Below, in pieces: positions 10,231 to 22,715 of a stretch of DNA of 53,765 nucleotides. A model generated the notes under the pieces. The model did no database searches, was not told where the DNA came from, and saw only the letters and a program-made list of their open reading frames with translations. Numbering within the stretch: position 1 is the first letter of the stretch; each line of letters begins with the position of its first letter. Source of the DNA: Patescibacteria group bacterium (GTDB lineage Bacteria > Patescibacteriota > Patescibacteriia > UBA9570 > JAHJKD01); the NCBI GenBank assembly GCA_018822435.1, contig JAHJKD010000038.1, positions 1-53,765 of the forward strand, in the 5' to 3' direction. The translations under genes were made by a program, and so were the position numbers.

Positions 10231-11685
10231 ATGGCCGAAAAAGCATTGAAATTATTTCATAGGTATCCTAACACTGAGAGAAAACCGATCGGTGAAATAC
10301 CGGAATTTTTTGATTTTGATCCAGATGAAAAGGAGGAAAAAACCGGTCAACGCGTCCGGGATTTTATAAAAGGATATTTCAAGACGATGATTGAAATAAA
10401 CCGTACTGCTGAAAGAGAAGGAATGAGACCTGCCAAACTAAAACTTGTCGAGAAATTTCTTAAAGACTTGGATTGGGCTACTATCGATGAGGAAGTTGAC
10501 ATGGAAGCCGCCGAGCAAAAGCTGGAATGCGCTGCAAAAAAGGCCTCTCAATTTACAGAAGAGCTGATTGATAAATTTTCCCCTCGCCGCCGCCTTATGC
10601 GCGAATTACCGAGTGTGGCTGCTGATAACAATGTCGTATCTTTGATCCAGCGGACTCGCCAGCTTATCCGAGAAATGCATGAGATGAAAAGGGAAAAAAT
10701 TTTGAAAATTGATGACTGGGCCGCCATAGAAAGGGAATATTTTGAAATCGTCCGTAAACTTCTTCTTACTAAAGATTTTTTAGAAATTGATTTTACTAAA
10801 GGTGGAGAAGGCGCCCTAGAGTCAGATAGGAAAAAAATGGAAACAGAAATCAAAAGAGAAGGAGTATTCAAAATGGAAGACGGTGAGATATTAAAAGAAG
10901 ATAAAACCATCCGGACTTTTATAGATCCGAAAACCGGAGAATGTAAATATTCTTTCTTAGAAGGATATTCTCATGATCCTGACAGCGAAGAATTAAAAAA
11001 GAAATTAGAAGGACTGGAAGAGTTAGATGTTGATGCCCAGGTCAGATACATGAAAATGCCCAGTTTGCTTCGTGATGTCTTGATTAAGAAAGGGACTTTA
11101 AAAGCCGAAGATGATGACGATGTGTATGTGCCTATTGTTTTTCAATCCCGCATAAAAAATCCCTTGTCTCAGGAATCAAAAGTTTTACGTGAACCCGGCG
11201 TTCTTAATCCCGGCGAGGTGCTAGATATACGGGGAATGAGATTTATACCCATTAGTATCGACGGGGAAGAGGATGTTCGTCTGAATCAACTAATATTAGA
11301 GAAATTACTGGATAAAATTTTTCCCGGCCCAGGCACGGCCCGCAGTGTCCGCTATGCCAAGGACAAGCGGCCGAAAAAGAGCTCACCCAGCCTGCGTATT
11401 GATGCTTTTAAAGATCGTTTTAAGGGCAAAGATTGGGAAGTTCAGGTTCAGAGCATGACTAATTATATTAGTTCCCGCACTATGGCCAGTGATAAAATAA
11501 ATCATGACTTATATCGTGCCCATCAGCATATGGACGGGACATTTCCAAATTTATTTCCAAAATTTATATATGGTATTGATTGGCAATCTCTTGATGAACA
11601 AAGAAAAGTAACGGCCCTAGTAGAGAGAAGAACCCGAAATAATCTTAGAGACGAAGGCATTAGCTTGCGTGAGAAAGAAATTTAA
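10231..11685 (+). CDS. Hypothetical protein with a divergent RelA/SpoT-like synthetase fold
   Basis: 484 aa. The first 290 residues are charged and helical without a recognised motif. The C-terminal part follows the order of a Rel nucleotidyltransferase: VFQSRIKNPLSQESKV (compare vxgRxKsxxSi-K), DIRGMRFIPI near 332 (compare DxxgvRii), KDKRPKKSSPSLRI, then WEVQVQSM near 402 (compare vEiQIRT) and HDLYRAHQ (compare aeHxxYK). I see no HD hydrolase motif. Function as a (p)ppGpp synthetase is inference; the fold assignment needs a profile or structure search. The -10-like TAAAAT is 6 nt before the ATG. Confidence 0.6.
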   Translation: MAEKALKLFHRYPNTERKPIGEIPEFFDFDPDEKEEKTGQRVRDFIKGYFKTMIEINRTAEREGMRPAKLKLVEKFLKDLDWATIDEEVDMEAAEQKLECAAKKASQFTEELIDKFSPRRRLMRELPSVAADNNVVSLIQRTRQLIREMHEMKREKILKIDDWAAIEREYFEIVRKLLLTKDFLEIDFTKGGEGALESDRKKMETEIKREGVFKMEDGEILKEDKTIRTFIDPKTGECKYSFLEGYSHDPDSEELKKKLEGLEELDVDAQVRYMKMPSLLRDVLIKKGTLKAEDDDDVYVPIVFQSRIKNPLSQESKVLREPGVLNPGEVLDIRGMRFIPISIDGEEDVRLNQLILEKLLDKIFPGPGTARSVRYAKDKRPKKSSPSLRIDAFKDRFKGKDWEVQVQSMTNYISSRTMASDKINHDLYRAHQHMDGTFPNLFPKFIYGIDWQSLDEQRKVTALVERRTRNNLRDEGISLREKEI

Positions 11686-11701
11686 TTTGTGGAAAATACA
11701 C

Positions 11702-11729
11702 TTGCCAAAAATAAAAAGCCTGATATAAT
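11702..11729 (+). promoter_or_regulatory. Promoter of the attenuated leader upstream of the small-gene island
   Basis: TTGCCA (11702-11707), 16-bp spacer, TATAAT (11724-11729). The spacer reads almost the same as that of the tuf promoter (TTGCCAAAATAAAAGCCTG at 32083), differing by two inserted A. Transcription should begin near 11736, about 240 nt before the first small ORF. Confidence 0.75.
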
Positions 11730-11791
11730 GACCCTGTTATGAATTATATATCTACTAAGCTCAACTTATTTATTTTTAAGAACCACTTCAA

Positions 11792-11853
11792 GCGGTAGAA
11801 TTTTCATATTTTAGGAAGATGATAATTATACCGCCACATAAGGCGGTTTTTTT
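11792..11853 (+). promoter_or_regulatory. Putative transcription attenuator or short terminated RNA
   Basis: ACCGCC/GGCGGT with a 6-nt loop and seven T (11830-11853) is a rho-independent terminator. GCGGTA at 11792-11797 can instead pair with TACCGC (11829-11834), taking away the terminator's 5' arm. This mutually exclusive pairing is the logic of an attenuator or riboswitch. If it always terminates, the product is an RNA of about 115 nt. No known riboswitch core is recognised. Confidence 0.5.
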
Positions 11854-11880
11854 AAACACAGCTCTTTTTATCAGTTTCAT

Positions 11881-11938
11881 TGTGAGCGTTCGGCCCAACT
11901 TGTCTCGAGCTTGCCGGGAGATGGTTCGGGCGCTCACA
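11881..11938 (+). repeat. Leader inverted repeat before the first small gene
   Basis: TGTGAGCG (11881-11888) and CGCTCACA (11931-11938) are perfect 8-bp arms closing a 58-nt segment that can fold further inside. It ends 24 nt before a GGGAGG ribosome-binding site. A matching 5' hairpin occurs before the lipoprotein gene at 21990. Confidence 0.6.
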
Positions 11939-11978
11939 AGGAGCACAAACAACCAAATGAGAGGGAGGCTTATACGAA

Positions 11979-12206
11979 ATGAGCAATTCGGAAATTAAGG
12001 AGCTCTTCGAGCTTGCTCTGGGAGCGGCTCGGAACCGCAATACCCGCAGGGTCGGATCGATTCTCACGACCATCACTTCGGCTGACGAAGAACAACCCCA
12101 CCTCCGCCCTTGGGCAGAAGAGGCTCGGGCCATCTTCAGGAACTGTGAGTCCGGCCAGTGGGAAAGCGCTATTAACCAGATCATGGCAGCCCTTGTCAGG
12201 GTCTGA
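11979..12206 (+). CDS. Small hypothetical protein, accessory island gene 1
   Basis: 75 aa, predicted helical, no signal peptide. A GGGAGG lies 10 nt before the ATG, unlike most genes in this window. Codons are G+C-rich and unlike the AT-rich neighbours. Its end ESGQWESAINQIMAAL resembles KAGHWEQAKQESARIA in the next gene, so the two may share a TPR-like helix-turn-helix repeat. I do not recognise the family. Longer frames over the same DNA (12013-12570 plus strand, 11852-12292 minus strand) are taken as shadows. Confidence 0.65.
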   Translation: MSNSEIKELFELALGAARNRNTRRVGSILTTITSADEEQPHLRPWAEEARAIFRNCESGQWESAINQIMAALVRV

Positions 12207-12220
12207 ATCAAGGAGGCGAC

Positions 12221-12448
12221 ATGCCATACGTATTGCCAAATGGATTCCGGGATCGTCTGGTCATGATCCAGACAGCGCTCAAGGCCGGTCATTGGGAACA
12301 GGCCAAGCAGGAGTCAGCCCGCATTGCGATGATGGAAGCCGAAGTCGAAATCACCTGTCTGGGCAAGATCTGGCCTCAGTCCTGCAATCCGCAAGGCTCT
12401 CGCCGTCTGCTTCAGGAGATTCAATCCATCCTCATGATCAACGGATAA
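12221..12448 (+). CDS. Small hypothetical protein, accessory island gene 2
   Basis: 75 aa, the same length as the preceding gene and 14 nt behind it. AAGGAGG sits 5 nt before the ATG, a near-perfect Shine-Dalgarno match. The sequence is helical with a GxWExA pattern like gene 1, and has two Cys (ITCLGKIWPQSCN). G+C-rich codons again set it apart. The pair probably forms a dicistronic unit acquired from outside. Function unknown. Confidence 0.65.
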   Translation: MPYVLPNGFRDRLVMIQTALKAGHWEQAKQESARIAMMEAEVEITCLGKIWPQSCNPQGSRRLLQEIQSILMING

Positions 12449-12563
12449 CATCTCTCTCTGGGGGCACTATTTCAGTTTCAATGGGACGCTTAATACAATC
12501 ACCGCGTCCTCTAAACACGAAATCTTTCCGCCCCCTTCCCCCATCTGTGGAAAACTTTAAATA

Positions 12564-12591
12564 TTGCTAAAAACCATCAAATTGTTATACT
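12564..12591 (+). promoter_or_regulatory. Promoter of accessory island gene 3
   Basis: TTGCTA (12564-12569), 16-bp spacer, TATACT (12586-12591). Transcription from about 12598 would place the strong hairpin at 12631-12679 in the 5' leader. The 307-nt stretch 12449-12755 holds only this promoter, that hairpin and no gene. Confidence 0.55.
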
Positions 12592-12630
12592 TATTTTCGT
12601 TCATACGTACTTTAAATAACAAGATACTCT

Positions 12631-12679
12631 TCCTCTCATCAGTATGTTTATAAACATTATAAACATACTGATGTGAGGA
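12631..12679. repeat. Near-perfect 49-bp palindrome
   Basis: Arms of 23 bp (TCCTCTCATCAGTATGTTTA and on) with a single T-T mismatch and a 3-nt ACA loop. It is not followed by a T-run, so it is not a standard terminator. It lies in the predicted leader of the 108-aa gene. It could be an mRNA-stabilising stem, an operator or a recombination/replication site. Confidence 0.9.
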
Positions 12680-12755
12680 GGGGCTTGTAATTAGGGGGAT
12701 CCCATAGGGGGAGAACCAGAAAGCAGCCAATTTTAATCTCGGGGAGAATCGCAAA

Positions 12756-13082
12756 GTGAAGCACAGACGCGTATTCAACATGGAAGAGCTGAGAAGGGTT
12801 GTTGATGAGGCCGCTGAAGCTGGTGATCCGCACTTCGGGTCGGACCAGTTGCGGGAGATCGCTGCCAGGTCTGATGATCCGGAAGTAATCACGAAGGCTG
12901 GAATCTTTGCCAAGCTGTTCGAAGGTGCCGCGCAGGAGTTGGATACCTGCCAGGTACTGGAATACGATCTCAAGGAAGTAGTCCAGATTGTCCGCAGAAC
13001 CGGTAAGGTGCCGACTCTCGCCATTTTCCCCTCCATTCCCCGCCTGTTTTCCGACACGGGAGCAATCAGCCTCGGCGACTAG
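12756..13082 (+). CDS. Small hypothetical protein, accessory island gene 3
   Basis: 108 aa starting at a GTG with GGGGAG 9 nt upstream; an internal ATG eight codons on lacks such a site. The protein is acidic and helical (MEELRRVVDEAAEAGDPHFG, then SDQLREIAARSDDPEVITKAG) and ends in a proline-containing tail. Codon choice is G+C-rich like the two genes before it. The last codons form the left arm of a 12-bp inverted repeat. No family recognised; a cytosolic protein acquired horizontally is the best reading. Confidence 0.65.
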   Translation: MKHRRVFNMEELRRVVDEAAEAGDPHFGSDQLREIAARSDDPEVITKAGIFAKLFEGAAQELDTCQVLEYDLKEVVQIVRRTGKVPTLAIFPSIPRLFSDTGAISLGD

Positions 13083-13097
13083 CCACTGATTGCTCCC
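13058..13097 (+). repeat. Hairpin overlapping the 3' end of island gene 3
   Basis: GGGAGCAATCAG and CTGATTGCTCCC are perfect 12-bp arms spanning the stop codon. The text after it (CTCCCAAATTCCCAC) resembles that after the lipoprotein hairpin at 22680-22715 (TTCCCAAACCCAC), suggesting a shared cassette end. Confidence 0.85.
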
Positions 13098-13129
13098 AAA
13101 TTCCCACTCAAATTGAAATCACCAAAACA

Positions 13130-13158
13130 GCCCCTCAAGTGCGGGGCCTTTTCTTTCT
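13130..13158 (+). terminator. Terminator after the accessory island
   Basis: GCCCC and GGGGC stem with an 8-nt loop followed by CTTTTCTTTCT, a U-rich tail. It closes the island before the ligase-peptidase operon. Confidence 0.7.
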
Positions 13159-13176
13159 ATCTTTTCCCGGTCTAAC

Positions 13177-13204
13177 TTGAAATATAATAAAATTATGTTA
13201 TTCT
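13177..13204 (+). promoter_or_regulatory. Possible promoter of the ligase-peptidase operon
   Basis: TTGAAA (13177-13182), 16-bp spacer, TATTCT (13199-13204), with the ATG at 13213 so that the transcript would be nearly leaderless. A TATAAT at 13183-13188 with a poor -35 is an alternative giving an approximately 18-nt leader. Confidence 0.45.
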
Positions 13205-13212
13205 AAGATCTA

Positions 13213-15816
13213 ATGACTAAAATCGAAAAACAAAAATTTACCAAGCTACAACAGCATCTAAAAAAGAATTGGTCTTTTGTTGAAGACGACTACGAAGGTT
13301 GCCGTACTTTAGTTATGATTGCCAGTTTTTCTTTAGATCCTGAAGAACTTCGAAAAGTTTTTGGCATAGAGTTCTACGAGGAACGTTTATTATATTTTAT
13401 CGGCTTATTAAAGAATCCAAATACTAAAATAATATACATTAGTTCTTTAAGGATAGACCCGGTCATCGTCGACTACTATCTTACAATGTATTCCGATTCA
13501 TCATCTCAGAAAAAAGACATGAAATCCCGCCTTGTCATGCTTCAGGCCGGCGACTCCGGCTCTTATCTGGCTTTGACTCAGAAGGTATTAAAAAACAAGA
13601 AGTTAATAAAAGAAATTAAAGACGAGATTCCAAATAAAAAACAAGCCGTATTGCGTTGCTTTAATTCTACGCAAGATGAAGAAGATCTGGCCGTAAAATT
13701 AGGCGTTCCTCTCTTTGCCCCTTCATCCAAACTGGTTCCCTTGGGTTCCAAGTCTGGTTCCCGCGAAACTTTCAAAGCAGCCGGCGTAAAAGTTCCTCCT
13801 GGTGTAGAAAACATCATGAATGAAGACGGTCTTATCAAAGCTTTGCGTAGTATGAAACGCCGCAATCCAAAATTGCAAAAAGTAATTCTAAAATTTAATT
13901 ATAGTTTTTCCGGCGGGGGCAATGCCATTTTAAATGTCGCCAAATTGCCTGGAAAAAAAGAAGAGATTATTAAATATGTTCTTCGCTATTTAAGGCCGAT
14001 AGAAACTGATTTACTGACAAAAAAATATTTAGAAAAATTATTCAAATTTGGCGGTATTGTAGAAGAATGGATGATGGGCGCTAAAACAGACTCACCATCT
14101 GCCCAGTTAAATATTCTTCCCAATAAAAAGGTCGAGCTGATTTCTACTCATGAACAATTACTTGATGAAGAAACTCAGCAAACGTATTTAGGCTGTCGCT
14201 TTCCCGCTAAAAAATCAAATACTAAAGTTATTTCCCAGGCAGGGATGAAGATTGGCAATTACCTGGCAAAGAAAGGTGTGATTGGACGATTTGCGATTGA
14301 CTTTGTCGTGAATAAATCTGGCAACCGGACCGATGTCCGTGCCATTGAAATAAACTTAAGAAAAGGCGGGACTACACATCCGTATTTCATGACCAAGCTT
14401 ATAACAGGAGCTAAGCCGGATAAGAATGGCATGCTTCGTATTGATGGCCGCCGTGTTTTTTATTATGCCTTTGATAATATCAAGCACCCGGAATACGCCC
14501 ATCTTGACGCCAAGACTTTGATCGAGATTGTTCATCAATCTGGCCTAGAATACGATCCAGAAACTCAGACTGGCATAGTCCTGCATCTGCTCGGCGCTAT
14601 TAAAACATTTCATAAATTTGGTGCTGTTTGCATTGCCCGGTCACCCAAAGCCGCCGAACAATTATATTTTTTATTAATAAGAGTAGTTAATAAATACTTA
14701 GAAGAAAAACAGGAAGTCAAAGTCAAAAAAGAAGACACGATCGTCAACAAAAATCGCTTAGTCGAAACATTTGGCAAACTTGTCAGAATAGATAGCCCGC
14801 CCGGAGAAGAAAAATTATTATCAGACGCGCTTTTTGACAAATTTAAATCCCTGGGTTTTAAAACCACTCAGGATGAATTTTGGAATATTTTAGTAAAGAT
14901 CCCGGGCCGTGGTAATATCCCTTTTCTATTATCCGCCCACATGGATGTCGTTCAGCCTTGCCGGAATGTCCAGCCGGTTGTCCGGGGTGATAAAATCATG
15001 TCGGCCGGTGATACTGTTCTTGGTGCTGATGACAAGGCCGCTATCGCTTATATTCTAGAATTAGTAAATATATTAGAGGAACAAAAGATTCCTCATCGTC
15101 CTTTGGAATTACTATTCACAGTACGGGAAGAAACTTTTTTTGGGGGCGTTCTTGATATGGACACAACAAAAATTACTTCACCTATGGGCTATGTCATAGA
15201 CGGGGCCAAAATCGGAGAGATCGATATTTCCGCGCCCTGGCTCATGCATATGAAAATTGAGGTAAAAGGCAAGGCCGCTCACTCTGGCGTAAATCCGGAA
15301 GAGGGCATAAATGCTATTAAGATCGCTTCTGAAGCCATTAGTAAAATTCCTTTAGGCCGCATTGATAGTGAAACCACTGCTAACATTGGCACCATTAAAG
15401 GCGGCCACGCCTTAAATACTGTTCCTAATAAGGTAGAGATAGTGGCTGAAGCCCGCAGCCTCGATCGGAAAAAATTAGAAGAGCAAGTCGAGCGCATGAC
15501 CAAGGCATTTGAAGACGCCGCCGAAAAACACCACGGCATTGTCCAGATCGAAACCAAGATTCCTTATGACGGATATGTCTTTGATAAAGAGGATGTCTTT
15601 ATTCAAAAGACAGCCGACATTATGAAAAAAGCCGGCATCACTCCGGAAGTCAGAAAAGCCATGGGCGGCTCTGATGCCAATGAACTTATTTCCAAAGGCA
15701 TTAAGGTCCTGGACATCGGCACGGGCATGGAAAAACCCCATACTACAAAAGAGTCGATCGCTATACCGGAAATGATAAAAATGGTAAAATTCCTGCTGGA
15801 AGCAGTAAGGATTTAA
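13213..15816 (+). CDS. Fusion of a PGM1-like ATP-grasp ligase and an M20 metallopeptidase
   Basis: 867 aa. Residues 1 to about 500 look like a pre-ATP-grasp plus ATP-grasp ligase: VILKFNYSFSGGGNAIL (ATP Lys and Gly loop), FGGIVEEWM, RFAIDFVV and AIEINLRKGGTTHPY, the last supplying Glu and Asn for Mg. The GGTTHP text is typical of peptide ligases related to PGM1. From about 514 an M20/PepT-like peptidase follows: SAHMDVV, LGADDKAAIA, TVREETFFGG, VIDGAKIGEI, KAAHSGVNPEEG and EKPHTTKE, a complete two-metal site. Joining amide synthesis and hydrolysis in one chain is unusual. The substrate is unknown. It heads a three-gene operon with two membrane proteins. Confidence 0.85.
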   Translation: MTKIEKQKFTKLQQHLKKNWSFVEDDYEGCRTLVMIASFSLDPEELRKVFGIEFYEERLLYFIGLLKNPNTKIIYISSLRIDPVIVDYYLTMYSDSSSQKKDMKSRLVMLQAGDSGSYLALTQKVLKNKKLIKEIKDEIPNKKQAVLRCFNSTQDEEDLAVKLGVPLFAPSSKLVPLGSKSGSRETFKAAGVKVPPGVENIMNEDGLIKALRSMKRRNPKLQKVILKFNYSFSGGGNAILNVAKLPGKKEEIIKYVLRYLRPIETDLLTKKYLEKLFKFGGIVEEWMMGAKTDSPSAQLNILPNKKVELISTHEQLLDEETQQTYLGCRFPAKKSNTKVISQAGMKIGNYLAKKGVIGRFAIDFVVNKSGNRTDVRAIEINLRKGGTTHPYFMTKLITGAKPDKNGMLRIDGRRVFYYAFDNIKHPEYAHLDAKTLIEIVHQSGLEYDPETQTGIVLHLLGAIKTFHKFGAVCIARSPKAAEQLYFLLIRVVNKYLEEKQEVKVKKEDTIVNKNRLVETFGKLVRIDSPPGEEKLLSDALFDKFKSLGFKTTQDEFWNILVKIPGRGNIPFLLSAHMDVVQPCRNVQPVVRGDKIMSAGDTVLGADDKAAIAYILELVNILEEQKIPHRPLELLFTVREETFFGGVLDMDTTKITSPMGYVIDGAKIGEIDISAPWLMHMKIEVKGKAAHSGVNPEEGINAIKIASEAISKIPLGRIDSETTANIGTIKGGHALNTVPNKVEIVAEARSLDRKKLEEQVERMTKAFEDAAEKHHGIVQIETKIPYDGYVFDKEDVFIQKTADIMKKAGITPEVRKAMGGSDANELISKGIKVLDIGTGMEKPHTTKESIAIPEMIKMVKFLLEAVRI

Positions 15817-21904: not shown

Positions 21905-21937
21905 ATACAGACCCCTTGACGGGGTCTGTATTTTTTT
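21905..21937 (+). terminator. Terminator after the PLDc_N-like gene
   Basis: TACAGACCCC and GGGGTCTGTA arms around TTGAC, followed by seven T. Its loop also provides the -35 of the next promoter. Confidence 0.93.
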
Positions 21938-21944
21938 GTATAGT
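21916..21944 (+). promoter_or_regulatory. Promoter of the lipoprotein gene, overlapping a terminator
   Basis: TTGACG (21916-21921) starts in the terminator loop; TATAGT (21939-21944) follows after 17 bp. Transcription would begin near 21951, at the hairpin preceding the ribosome-binding site. Confidence 0.65.
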
Positions 21945-21952
21945 AATCTGTT

Positions 21953-21969
21953 CTGCGAATGGTTCGCAG
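21953..21969 (+). repeat. 5' leader hairpin of the lipoprotein gene
   Basis: CTGCGAA/TTCGCAG perfect 7-bp arms with a TGG loop, located about at the predicted transcript start and 8 nt before AAGGAGGGA. Such 5' stems often stabilise mRNA. Confidence 0.7.
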
Positions 21970-21989
21970 GCGTACAAAAGGAGGGACCT

Positions 21990-22670
21990 ATGCGGTCTGT
22001 TTCATCGATTCTCTGCATTCTGGTCGCATGCGGCCTCTTCACGTCCTGCTCTGCCTACCACAAGACCACGGTCAGTGCCAGGCTCTGTGACAATGCCCTG
22101 TGCCTGAAGCAGGGCCTGCCCACAGAGGCCACGCAGTTCGGCAACTGTTTGCTCCAGGATGACCAGCAAGGTGACATGACCTGGAATGAAGTGGTCTGCG
22201 CGCCCTCACCTGACGAAGCGCCGGCTTTCGAAGGCGAAGCCTTTTCGGCCGTGGTACAGCGCGTTCACGGCGGACCAGTAGACTCGGGAACAAAGCTGGT
22301 TTGTGTTTCGTCTGGCGGTGGTTTGGTTCTGGAATGTTGGCCTTATGATGAGATCAACAAAACCGTGCCCCGGGAGCCAAATTCGTCCGTGATCTACACC
22401 GAGATCCTGGAACCAGGGAAACTTCACCGCCAAGGTGTTTCTACGGCGGTAAACGAGGTATTCGGCTGCACCTTGTTCCCCTCCGGCACTGGTACGTCCT
22501 TCGTCTCCTGCCGAGCCGAAGAAGGAGACGTGATTGTGTTCCAGGCCGAGGTCCTCAAGTTCGGACAGAACTGGACTGAGACCGAGGAAGAAATGTCCGT
22601 AGATTGCTGGGTGGTACTGCCCGGTTACATGATGCGGTGCCATGCCCAGGAAGAGACCAACCCTCCCTAG
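21990..22670 (+). CDS. Secreted lipoprotein of unknown function
   Basis: 226 aa from the ATG at 21990; the ORF track begins 18 codons earlier at a TTG inside the hairpin. AAGGAGGGA precedes the ATG by 4 nt. The signal peptide MRSVSSILCILVACGLFTSCS ends in a lipobox (LFTSC). The mature part has many Cys (VSSGGGLVLECWPYD, FGCTLF, VSCRAEE, VDCWVVLPGYMMRC), suggesting disulfides. G+C-rich codons and the strong Shine-Dalgarno contrast with the flanking ribosomal genes, so it looks horizontally acquired. It interrupts rpsG-fusA. No family recognised. Confidence 0.75.
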   Translation: MRSVSSILCILVACGLFTSCSAYHKTTVSARLCDNALCLKQGLPTEATQFGNCLLQDDQQGDMTWNEVVCAPSPDEAPAFEGEAFSAVVQRVHGGPVDSGTKLVCVSSGGGLVLECWPYDEINKTVPREPNSSVIYTEILEPGKLHRQGVSTAVNEVFGCTLFPSGTGTSFVSCRAEEGDVIVFQAEVLKFGQNWTETEEEMSVDCWVVLPGYMMRCHAQEETNPP

Positions 22671-22679
22671 GAGGAACCA

Positions 22680-22715
22680 GGGAAGCAGTTCGGCTCACAC
22701 ACTGAGCTGCTTCCC
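22680..22715 (+). repeat. 3' hairpin after the lipoprotein gene
   Basis: GGGAAGCAGTTC and GAGCTGCTTCCC pair over 12 bp with one G-U. No T-run follows. The position and the sequence after it resemble the hairpin ending island gene 3 (13058-13097). Confidence 0.8.

Follow-up and report, generated by a model that had tools for sequence, protein, structure and literature searches.

The window analyzed here, a stretch of 53,765 nucleotides, is contig 43 in the 1.32 Mb genome (63 contigs) of a Patescibacteria group bacterium. It carries three small genes, A, B, and C, upstream of a conserved gene for a fusion of an ATP-grasp domain and an M20 peptidase, and a fourth gene, Lp, which has a small membrane-protein gene on one side and fusA on the other (Table 1). 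Gene B, with its own Shine–Dalgarno (SD) sequence, follows A after 14 nt, and by this layout A and B therefore form a single operon and transcript; C and Lp are standalone units, each by itself. Genes were called with simple custom scripts rather than a trained caller. The G+C contents of A, B, C, and Lp are 0.57, 0.54, 0.56, and 0.57, with third-position values of 0.64–0.67, compared with medians of 0.405 and 0.387, respectively, for a native reference of 401 sampled genes of at least 150 aa. The four genes thus differ from the genome in both base composition and third codon positions, as horizontally acquired accessory genes would, and the units form G+C-rich islands with A+T-rich valleys around and between them. 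This gene-by-gene comparison bears out an initial annotation of the sequence, which had described A, B, and C as SD-led, G+C-rich, and flanked by hairpins, with the qualification that the SD of C is the weakest among the four.

Table 1. Positions of genes and sequence features in the window; hairpin strength is z against dinucleotide shuffles.
Feature	Position	Strand	Details
Gene A	11979..12206	+	75 aa; SD GGGAGG at 11963..11968
Gene B	12221..12448	+	75 aa; SD AAGGAGG at 12210..12216
Gene C	12756..13082	+	108 aa, GTG start; SD GGGGAG at 12741..12746
Gene Lp	21990..22670	+	226 aa; lipoprotein-like N terminus (by eye); SD AAGGAGG at 21978..21984
Sigma-70-like promoter of A-B, TTGCCA-16-TATAAT	11702..11729	+	11/12 consensus bases; putative function
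Sigma-70-like promoter of C, TTGCTA-16-TATACT	12564..12591	+	9/12 consensus bases
Sigma-70-like promoter of Lp, TTGACG-17-TATAGT	21916..21944	+	10/12 consensus bases; inside terminator of preceding gene
Intrinsic-terminator-like stem ahead of A-B	11830..11847	+	may terminate gene 10231 or attenuate A-B
5′ leader hairpin of A-B	11883..11936	+	z −2.1 (weak)
3′ hairpin of A-B operon	12460..12535	+	z −4.2; C-rich tail after
5′ leader hairpin of C	12627..12683	+	z −9.0; near-perfect 26-bp stem
3′ hairpin of C	13058..13097	+	z −6.3; 12-bp perfect stem, then AAATTCCCAC
Intrinsic-terminator-like stem 3′ of C	13130..13147	+	
ATP-grasp + M20 peptidase fusion	13213..15816	+	conserved neighbor downstream of C
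5′ leader hairpin of Lp	21952..21970	+	z −1.5 (weak)
3′ hairpin of Lp	22680..22715	+	z −4.7; then AAACCCACCCC

Signals, hairpins, and proteins of the units

Promoter-like sites number 5 in the A-B-C region, compared with a shuffle mean of 1.6, and 4 in the Lp region, compared with 0.8 in shuffles. Between the putative A-B promoter and gene A, the interval 11739–11855 contains a 19-codon open reading frame whose stop codon overlaps an arm of a stem (11792–11834); this stem and the terminator-like one at 11830–11847 would be in competition, an attenuator-like layout. A search of positions 11650–13300 against Rfam gave no match up to the gathering score.

Gene B has no upstream hairpin of its own, and the 3′ hairpin of C starts within the last codons of the gene. 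Judged by eye, the hairpins of the units have no sequence in common. Across the G+C-rich genes of the genome described below, hairpins at the 3′ end surpass native ones in strength (p = 2.4e-4); at the 5′ end the difference falls short of significance (p = 0.06), and 5′ hairpins were rejected as a feature of the class. The 26-bp stem in the leader of C (12627–12683) would bury a GGAGGGG stretch, and a role as an RNA switch or operator is conceivable.

The initial annotation had also recognized the same layout in C and Lp, which is indeed alike in the 3′ hairpins (a 12-bp stem in the case of C) and in the tails at 13094 and 22712, the 5′ hairpin of Lp being weak. The genome-wide search that it had proposed gave no sign of a recurrent element: the tail motif, TCCCAAAN{0,3}CCCAC, has its sole two matches in the 1.32 Mb genome at these positions, both in the window. 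Across ten genomes it has 6 matches, compared with 3 when the motif is reversed as a control; of the 4 matches that lie in relatives, not one comes after a G+C-rich gene. The motif therefore does not define a class, and it was rejected as a cassette mark. The tail common to C and Lp may reflect a shared origin or a chance match.

Searches of Pfam, PHROGs, and PADLOC with A, B, C, and Lp returned nothing significant; PHROGs gave no match at E < 0.1, and the PADLOC defence families gave 0 matches for the four proteins. C has no relative among phages or viral contigs and A has none among viral contigs, which, together with the PHROGs result, leaves the viral origin that had been proposed without support. 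Ten proteins of the wider class likewise gave no clear phage-specific match, and a plasmid search with Lp gave no match. From its single sequence without an alignment, A is predicted to fold as a four-helix bundle with a pLDDT of 96.8, and a fold of such high confidence speaks for a real protein. Its best counterpart among PDB folds is weak (the small metal-binding protein 3u8v, TM 0.70, E 0.17), and its best match among PDB sequences has an E of 0.13. C is predicted to be helical with moderate confidence and has no useful match among PDB folds. That A and B are duplicates was rejected, since BLASTP does not align them; an HMM comparison gave only a 13-residue match around GxWExA (E 0.061 for the single pair). 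No paralogues of A, B, C, or Lp were found elsewhere in the sampled genome.

G+C-rich genes and their translation signals

The genome was sampled in 40 stretches plus the window (555 kb, 42% of the genome). The nearest comparison genomes are of the same order only, nine relatives in two other families. When genes were called blind to SD sequences in the sampled 42% of the genome, a core SD was found at 14 of 27 G+C-rich genes compared with 28 of 398 native genes (p = 7.7e-9), in agreement with the initial claim that most native genes lack an SD. The difference vanishes for SD motifs sought 20 nt further upstream (3/27 and 25/398, p = 0.41) and for the anti-SD (2/27 and 15/398); these are the controls relied on, as GGAGG reads the same backwards and a reversed SD is unusable. 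With relative G+C thresholds, and with the window and four odd contigs (L007, L013, L030, and L038) removed, the counts are 10/23 and 25/343 (p = 8e-6). Thresholds set relative to each genome gave 13/31 G+C-rich and 27/412 native genes with an SD in the genome itself, 7/25 and 36/571 in eight order relatives (p = 0.0011), and 1/2 and 56/312 in 23 genomes of the class. Gene calls from a codon model gave 19/30 and 36/321, but because the model was trained on SD-selected genes, the SD claim rests on the SD-blind and relative-threshold tests instead. The four odd contigs were excluded from the SD-blind (14/27), 10/23, and codon-model tests and included in the counts with per-genome thresholds (13/31) and in the density survey below. 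About half of the G+C-rich genes are without an SD in the SD-blind calls.

G+C-rich genes number 31 in the 555 kb of the genome itself (5.6 per 100 kb), 25 in 669 kb of the eight order relatives (3.7 per 100 kb, ranging from 0 in G007 to 10.2 in G004), and 2 in 393 kb of the 23 class genomes (0.5 per 100 kb), the last value being subject to a fixed offset of +0.10 G+C that is hardly reachable for the most G+C-rich class genomes and including two stretches of <3 kb with no counted gene. The class of G+C-rich genes comprises small orphans, lipoprotein-like and membrane proteins, a LOG enzyme, a second KhpA, a radical SAM protein, and an M23/FG-GAP protein, and the order relatives carry the same kind of gene, including a MopE-motif protein. 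A handful of G+C-rich genes, such as a response regulator (L039:4231, judged by eye), seem to be of native type. These results support the existence, in the genome and across the order, of acquired expression units that are SD-led and G+C-rich and form a recurrent class, the scattered small G+C-rich genes being apparently for the most part acquired from elsewhere. This part of the proposed recurrent class of acquired cassettes thus stands, and the common hairpin-plus-tail signature does not.

Several other G+C-rich stretches were encountered in the sample. A gene cluster at L029:339-3743 includes two members of a small paralogous family. Two contigs, L007 and L038, have a high G+C content over long distances, and portions of L013 and L030 are likewise G+C-rich; all of these possibly represent contamination or mobile elements. 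As judged by eye, L007 encodes tandem recombinase-like proteins and one that resembles a reverse transcriptase. The end of L039 (9211–9636) and the start of L027 carry related G+C-rich genes (E 2e-25), and the assembly may break at genes of this kind.

Among native genes without an SD, −10-like hexamers lie exactly 6 nt before the start codon in 26 of 385 cases, with neighboring distances mostly at 3 to 14. A peak at 6 nt is the layout of leaderless messages and is thus evidence that these are widespread, so that many native genes look leaderless. The anti-SD of the 16S rRNA, GGATCACCTCCTTT, is intact, and SD-led genes are therefore usable in this cell.

Sites of the units in related genomes

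In the orthologous rpsG-fusA region, Lp is missing from 9 of 9 order relatives, a patchy presence of the kind that the initial annotation had proposed to check for. In G004, G006, and G002, the left neighbor of Lp is followed by fusA, with neither Lp nor another G+C-rich gene; in G006 the small membrane-protein gene is present twice before fusA. G008 has another G+C-rich gene at the Lp site, on the opposite strand, G003 has a G+C-rich spacer of ~150 nt in the region, and five genomes, all of the other family, have rpsG directly beside fusA. The comparison supports a reading of Lp as a lineage-specific insertion. On its left side, A-B adjoins gene 10231, for which the nine order relatives offer no match, so that this side is not comparable and no empty site is demonstrable for A-B-C.

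The right side offers a comparison through the ATP-grasp/M20 gene. Its relatives in G006 and G004 are full-length; that of G002 has M20 alone and that of G005 ATP-grasp alone, and that of G008 is a fragment lying where a contig ends. At the junction of a prephenate dehydrogenase gene (identified by eye) with the M20 gene, there are at least three G+C-rich genes in G006, one in G004, and one in G002; in the genome studied here, the left neighbor is a gene other than prephenate dehydrogenase. The upstream gene in G005 is native in composition and was left uncounted, its neighbor being a 31%-identical partial relative. Among A, B, C, and the genes at this address, no mutual similarity was found with all phmmer filters off (best non-self E 0.037 in a set of eight). 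What recurs in the relatives is hence the position rather than the same genes with native composition; the occupants are unrelated and again G+C-rich.

The M20 address is occupied in 3 of 3 relatives compared with 6 of 73 elsewhere (p = 0.0012), a post hoc value that weakens with one more distal control case or with only the two full-length relatives. By eye, occupancy in relatives at the other junctions is 0/9 for TsaD, 2/8 for LexA, 1/9 for the PEP synthase-like gene, and 1/9 for rpsG-fusA. When the five junctions are pooled, adjacent G+C-rich genes occur at 7 of 38 sides compared with 3 of 38 control sides (p = 0.31), and a general claim of hot spots across all junctions was rejected. Only the M20 address stands out, and its holding mutually unrelated G+C-rich occupants in each of the three relatives counted is a new, post hoc observation.

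Origin and significance of the units

No homologue was found for A in 37 other genomes (1/38, its own genome) or for B and C in 379 other genomes (1/380 each, again their own genome), and a peptide scan of genome_contigs, a method that detects close relatives only, gave none for Lp. With no homologue found for the four genes, the support for a donor and for their transfer is indirect, and for A, B, and C themselves we infer horizontal transfer as the route. The one donor-informative member of the class is the G+C-rich LOG enzyme (L037:13320), whose best 80 matches in genome_contigs are all from bacteria of other phyla (42–53% identity). In a tree of 83 rows in all, with L105-type partial matches included, it stands apart from two LOGs of the order that have native composition, with 100/100 support, and on a long branch (1.14), which leaves the exact donor unsure. 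This LOG is clearly foreign and points to other bacteria, one of the two sources (viral or foreign bacterial) that the initial annotation had raised as possibilities. Furthermore, there are two KhpA-like RNA-binding reading frames in the one genome (L026:13093-13332 and a frame at 5711 of L010), of which the one in L026 is strongly G+C-rich (third-position 0.88).

We consider it likely that A-B, C, and Lp represent three accessory units, each with its own transcript, that this bacterium gained horizontally from G+C-rich donors and that turn over at permissive sites between genes. The composition of the units, the SD enrichment, the hairpins, the restriction to one lineage, the intact anti-SD, and the unrelated G+C-rich occupants of the M20 address are direct observations. 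Transcription of each unit would start at a sigma-70-like promoter rich in A+T; the message would open with a structured, G+C-rich leader and close with a hairpin, and its canonical SD would be read by the normal ribosome with its intact 16S anti-SD, amid native genes that are seldom SD-led and often leaderless. The units would be drawn from a pool of G+C-rich genes that spans the order and includes many small orphans; its members would be gained singly or in small numbers, and the junction upstream of the ATP-grasp/M20 gene would be one permissive intergenic address. ComEC is present in the genome, and foreign DNA may enter through it by competence, then insert between genes, and persist if it carries or meets a usable promoter, presumably in that order. 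It seems to us quite unlikely that the order has two expression regimes, a leaderless or SD-less core and a rapidly exchanged, SD-led accessory pool of small G+C-rich genes that swap at fixed intergenic addresses via a specific replacement mechanism; if this were true, the state of the ribosome or of an initiation factor could act as a switch for that entire pool.

A, B, C, Lp, and the genes at the M20 address might instead be fast-evolving native genes, inherited vertically from ancestral G+C-rich genes and diverged past recognition, their composition and SD sequences reflecting selection on a special expression class. Such descent would fit an address repeated in several genera, a uniform style, and the fact that no homologue indicates a donor, but the address genes are dissimilar even with the phmmer filters off, their number varies from one in G004 and G002 to at least three in G006, and the rpsG-fusA region, under the criteria of the junction survey, is without a G+C-rich gene in 8 of 9 relatives. 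With a clearly foreign LOG in addition, we regard this explanation as unlikely. An artefact of assembly or binning, by which foreign DNA was fused into the contig, would draw on the long G+C-rich stretches in other contigs that may be contaminants (L007 and L038); it is extremely improbable for units that lie within a 53.8-kb contig with native genes on either side, and whose style reappears inside contigs of relatives assembled separately.

Phage morons are small independent units with their own promoter and terminator and a deviating base composition, and in integron gene cassettes a hairpin comes after one or two small orphan genes. The units described here resemble the former in small size, own signals, and base composition, and the latter in having one or two small orphan genes and a hairpin. 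Unlike morons, they lie in a bacterial chromosome amid native genes and have no phage-family match; unlike integron cassettes, they are scattered singly, their hairpins have no common sequence by eye, and the tail is not class-wide. Discrete units separated by A+T-rich valleys, hairpins at the unit ends, and a tail common to two units would suit the cargo of a dedicated mobile system of the integron-like or moron-like kind, with the hairpins as recombination sites. However, the tail follows no other G+C-rich gene tested (0/4 of the matches in relatives), and overall its matches do not clearly outnumber those of the reversed motif. With no sequence common to the hairpins by eye, and with none of A, B, C, and Lp matching a phage family, a dedicated system appears very improbable.

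Acquisition of separate accessory units, the account that we favor, agrees with passages of a study on horizontally acquired genes and genomic islands in Patescibacteria (PMC12455944): single-gene gains in streamlined genomes, mostly of genes with unknown function, comEC and pili as the route of DNA uptake, and donors that are mostly other Patescibacteria and in some cases other phyla. The likeness extends to the single gains, the uptake route, and some donors from other phyla; the same passages make no mention of SD-led as opposed to leaderless expression, of small orphan units rich in G+C, or of addresses that recur (PMC12455944). A literature search, with subscription journals and preprints outside its scope, turned up no account of accessory genes of this SD-led, G+C-rich kind in comparable genomes.

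In a streamlined, probably host-dependent lineage, small SD-led orphans may account for many of the genes in which genera differ. As orphans that may differ between genera, they are natural candidates for functions specific to a host or a neighbor, and we think that neighbor- or host-directed accessory roles would be the most probable ones for these proteins. The split in translation signals provides a means of picking out part of the acquired gene pool from sequence only, and the recurrent address is a place to seek the mechanism of exchange.
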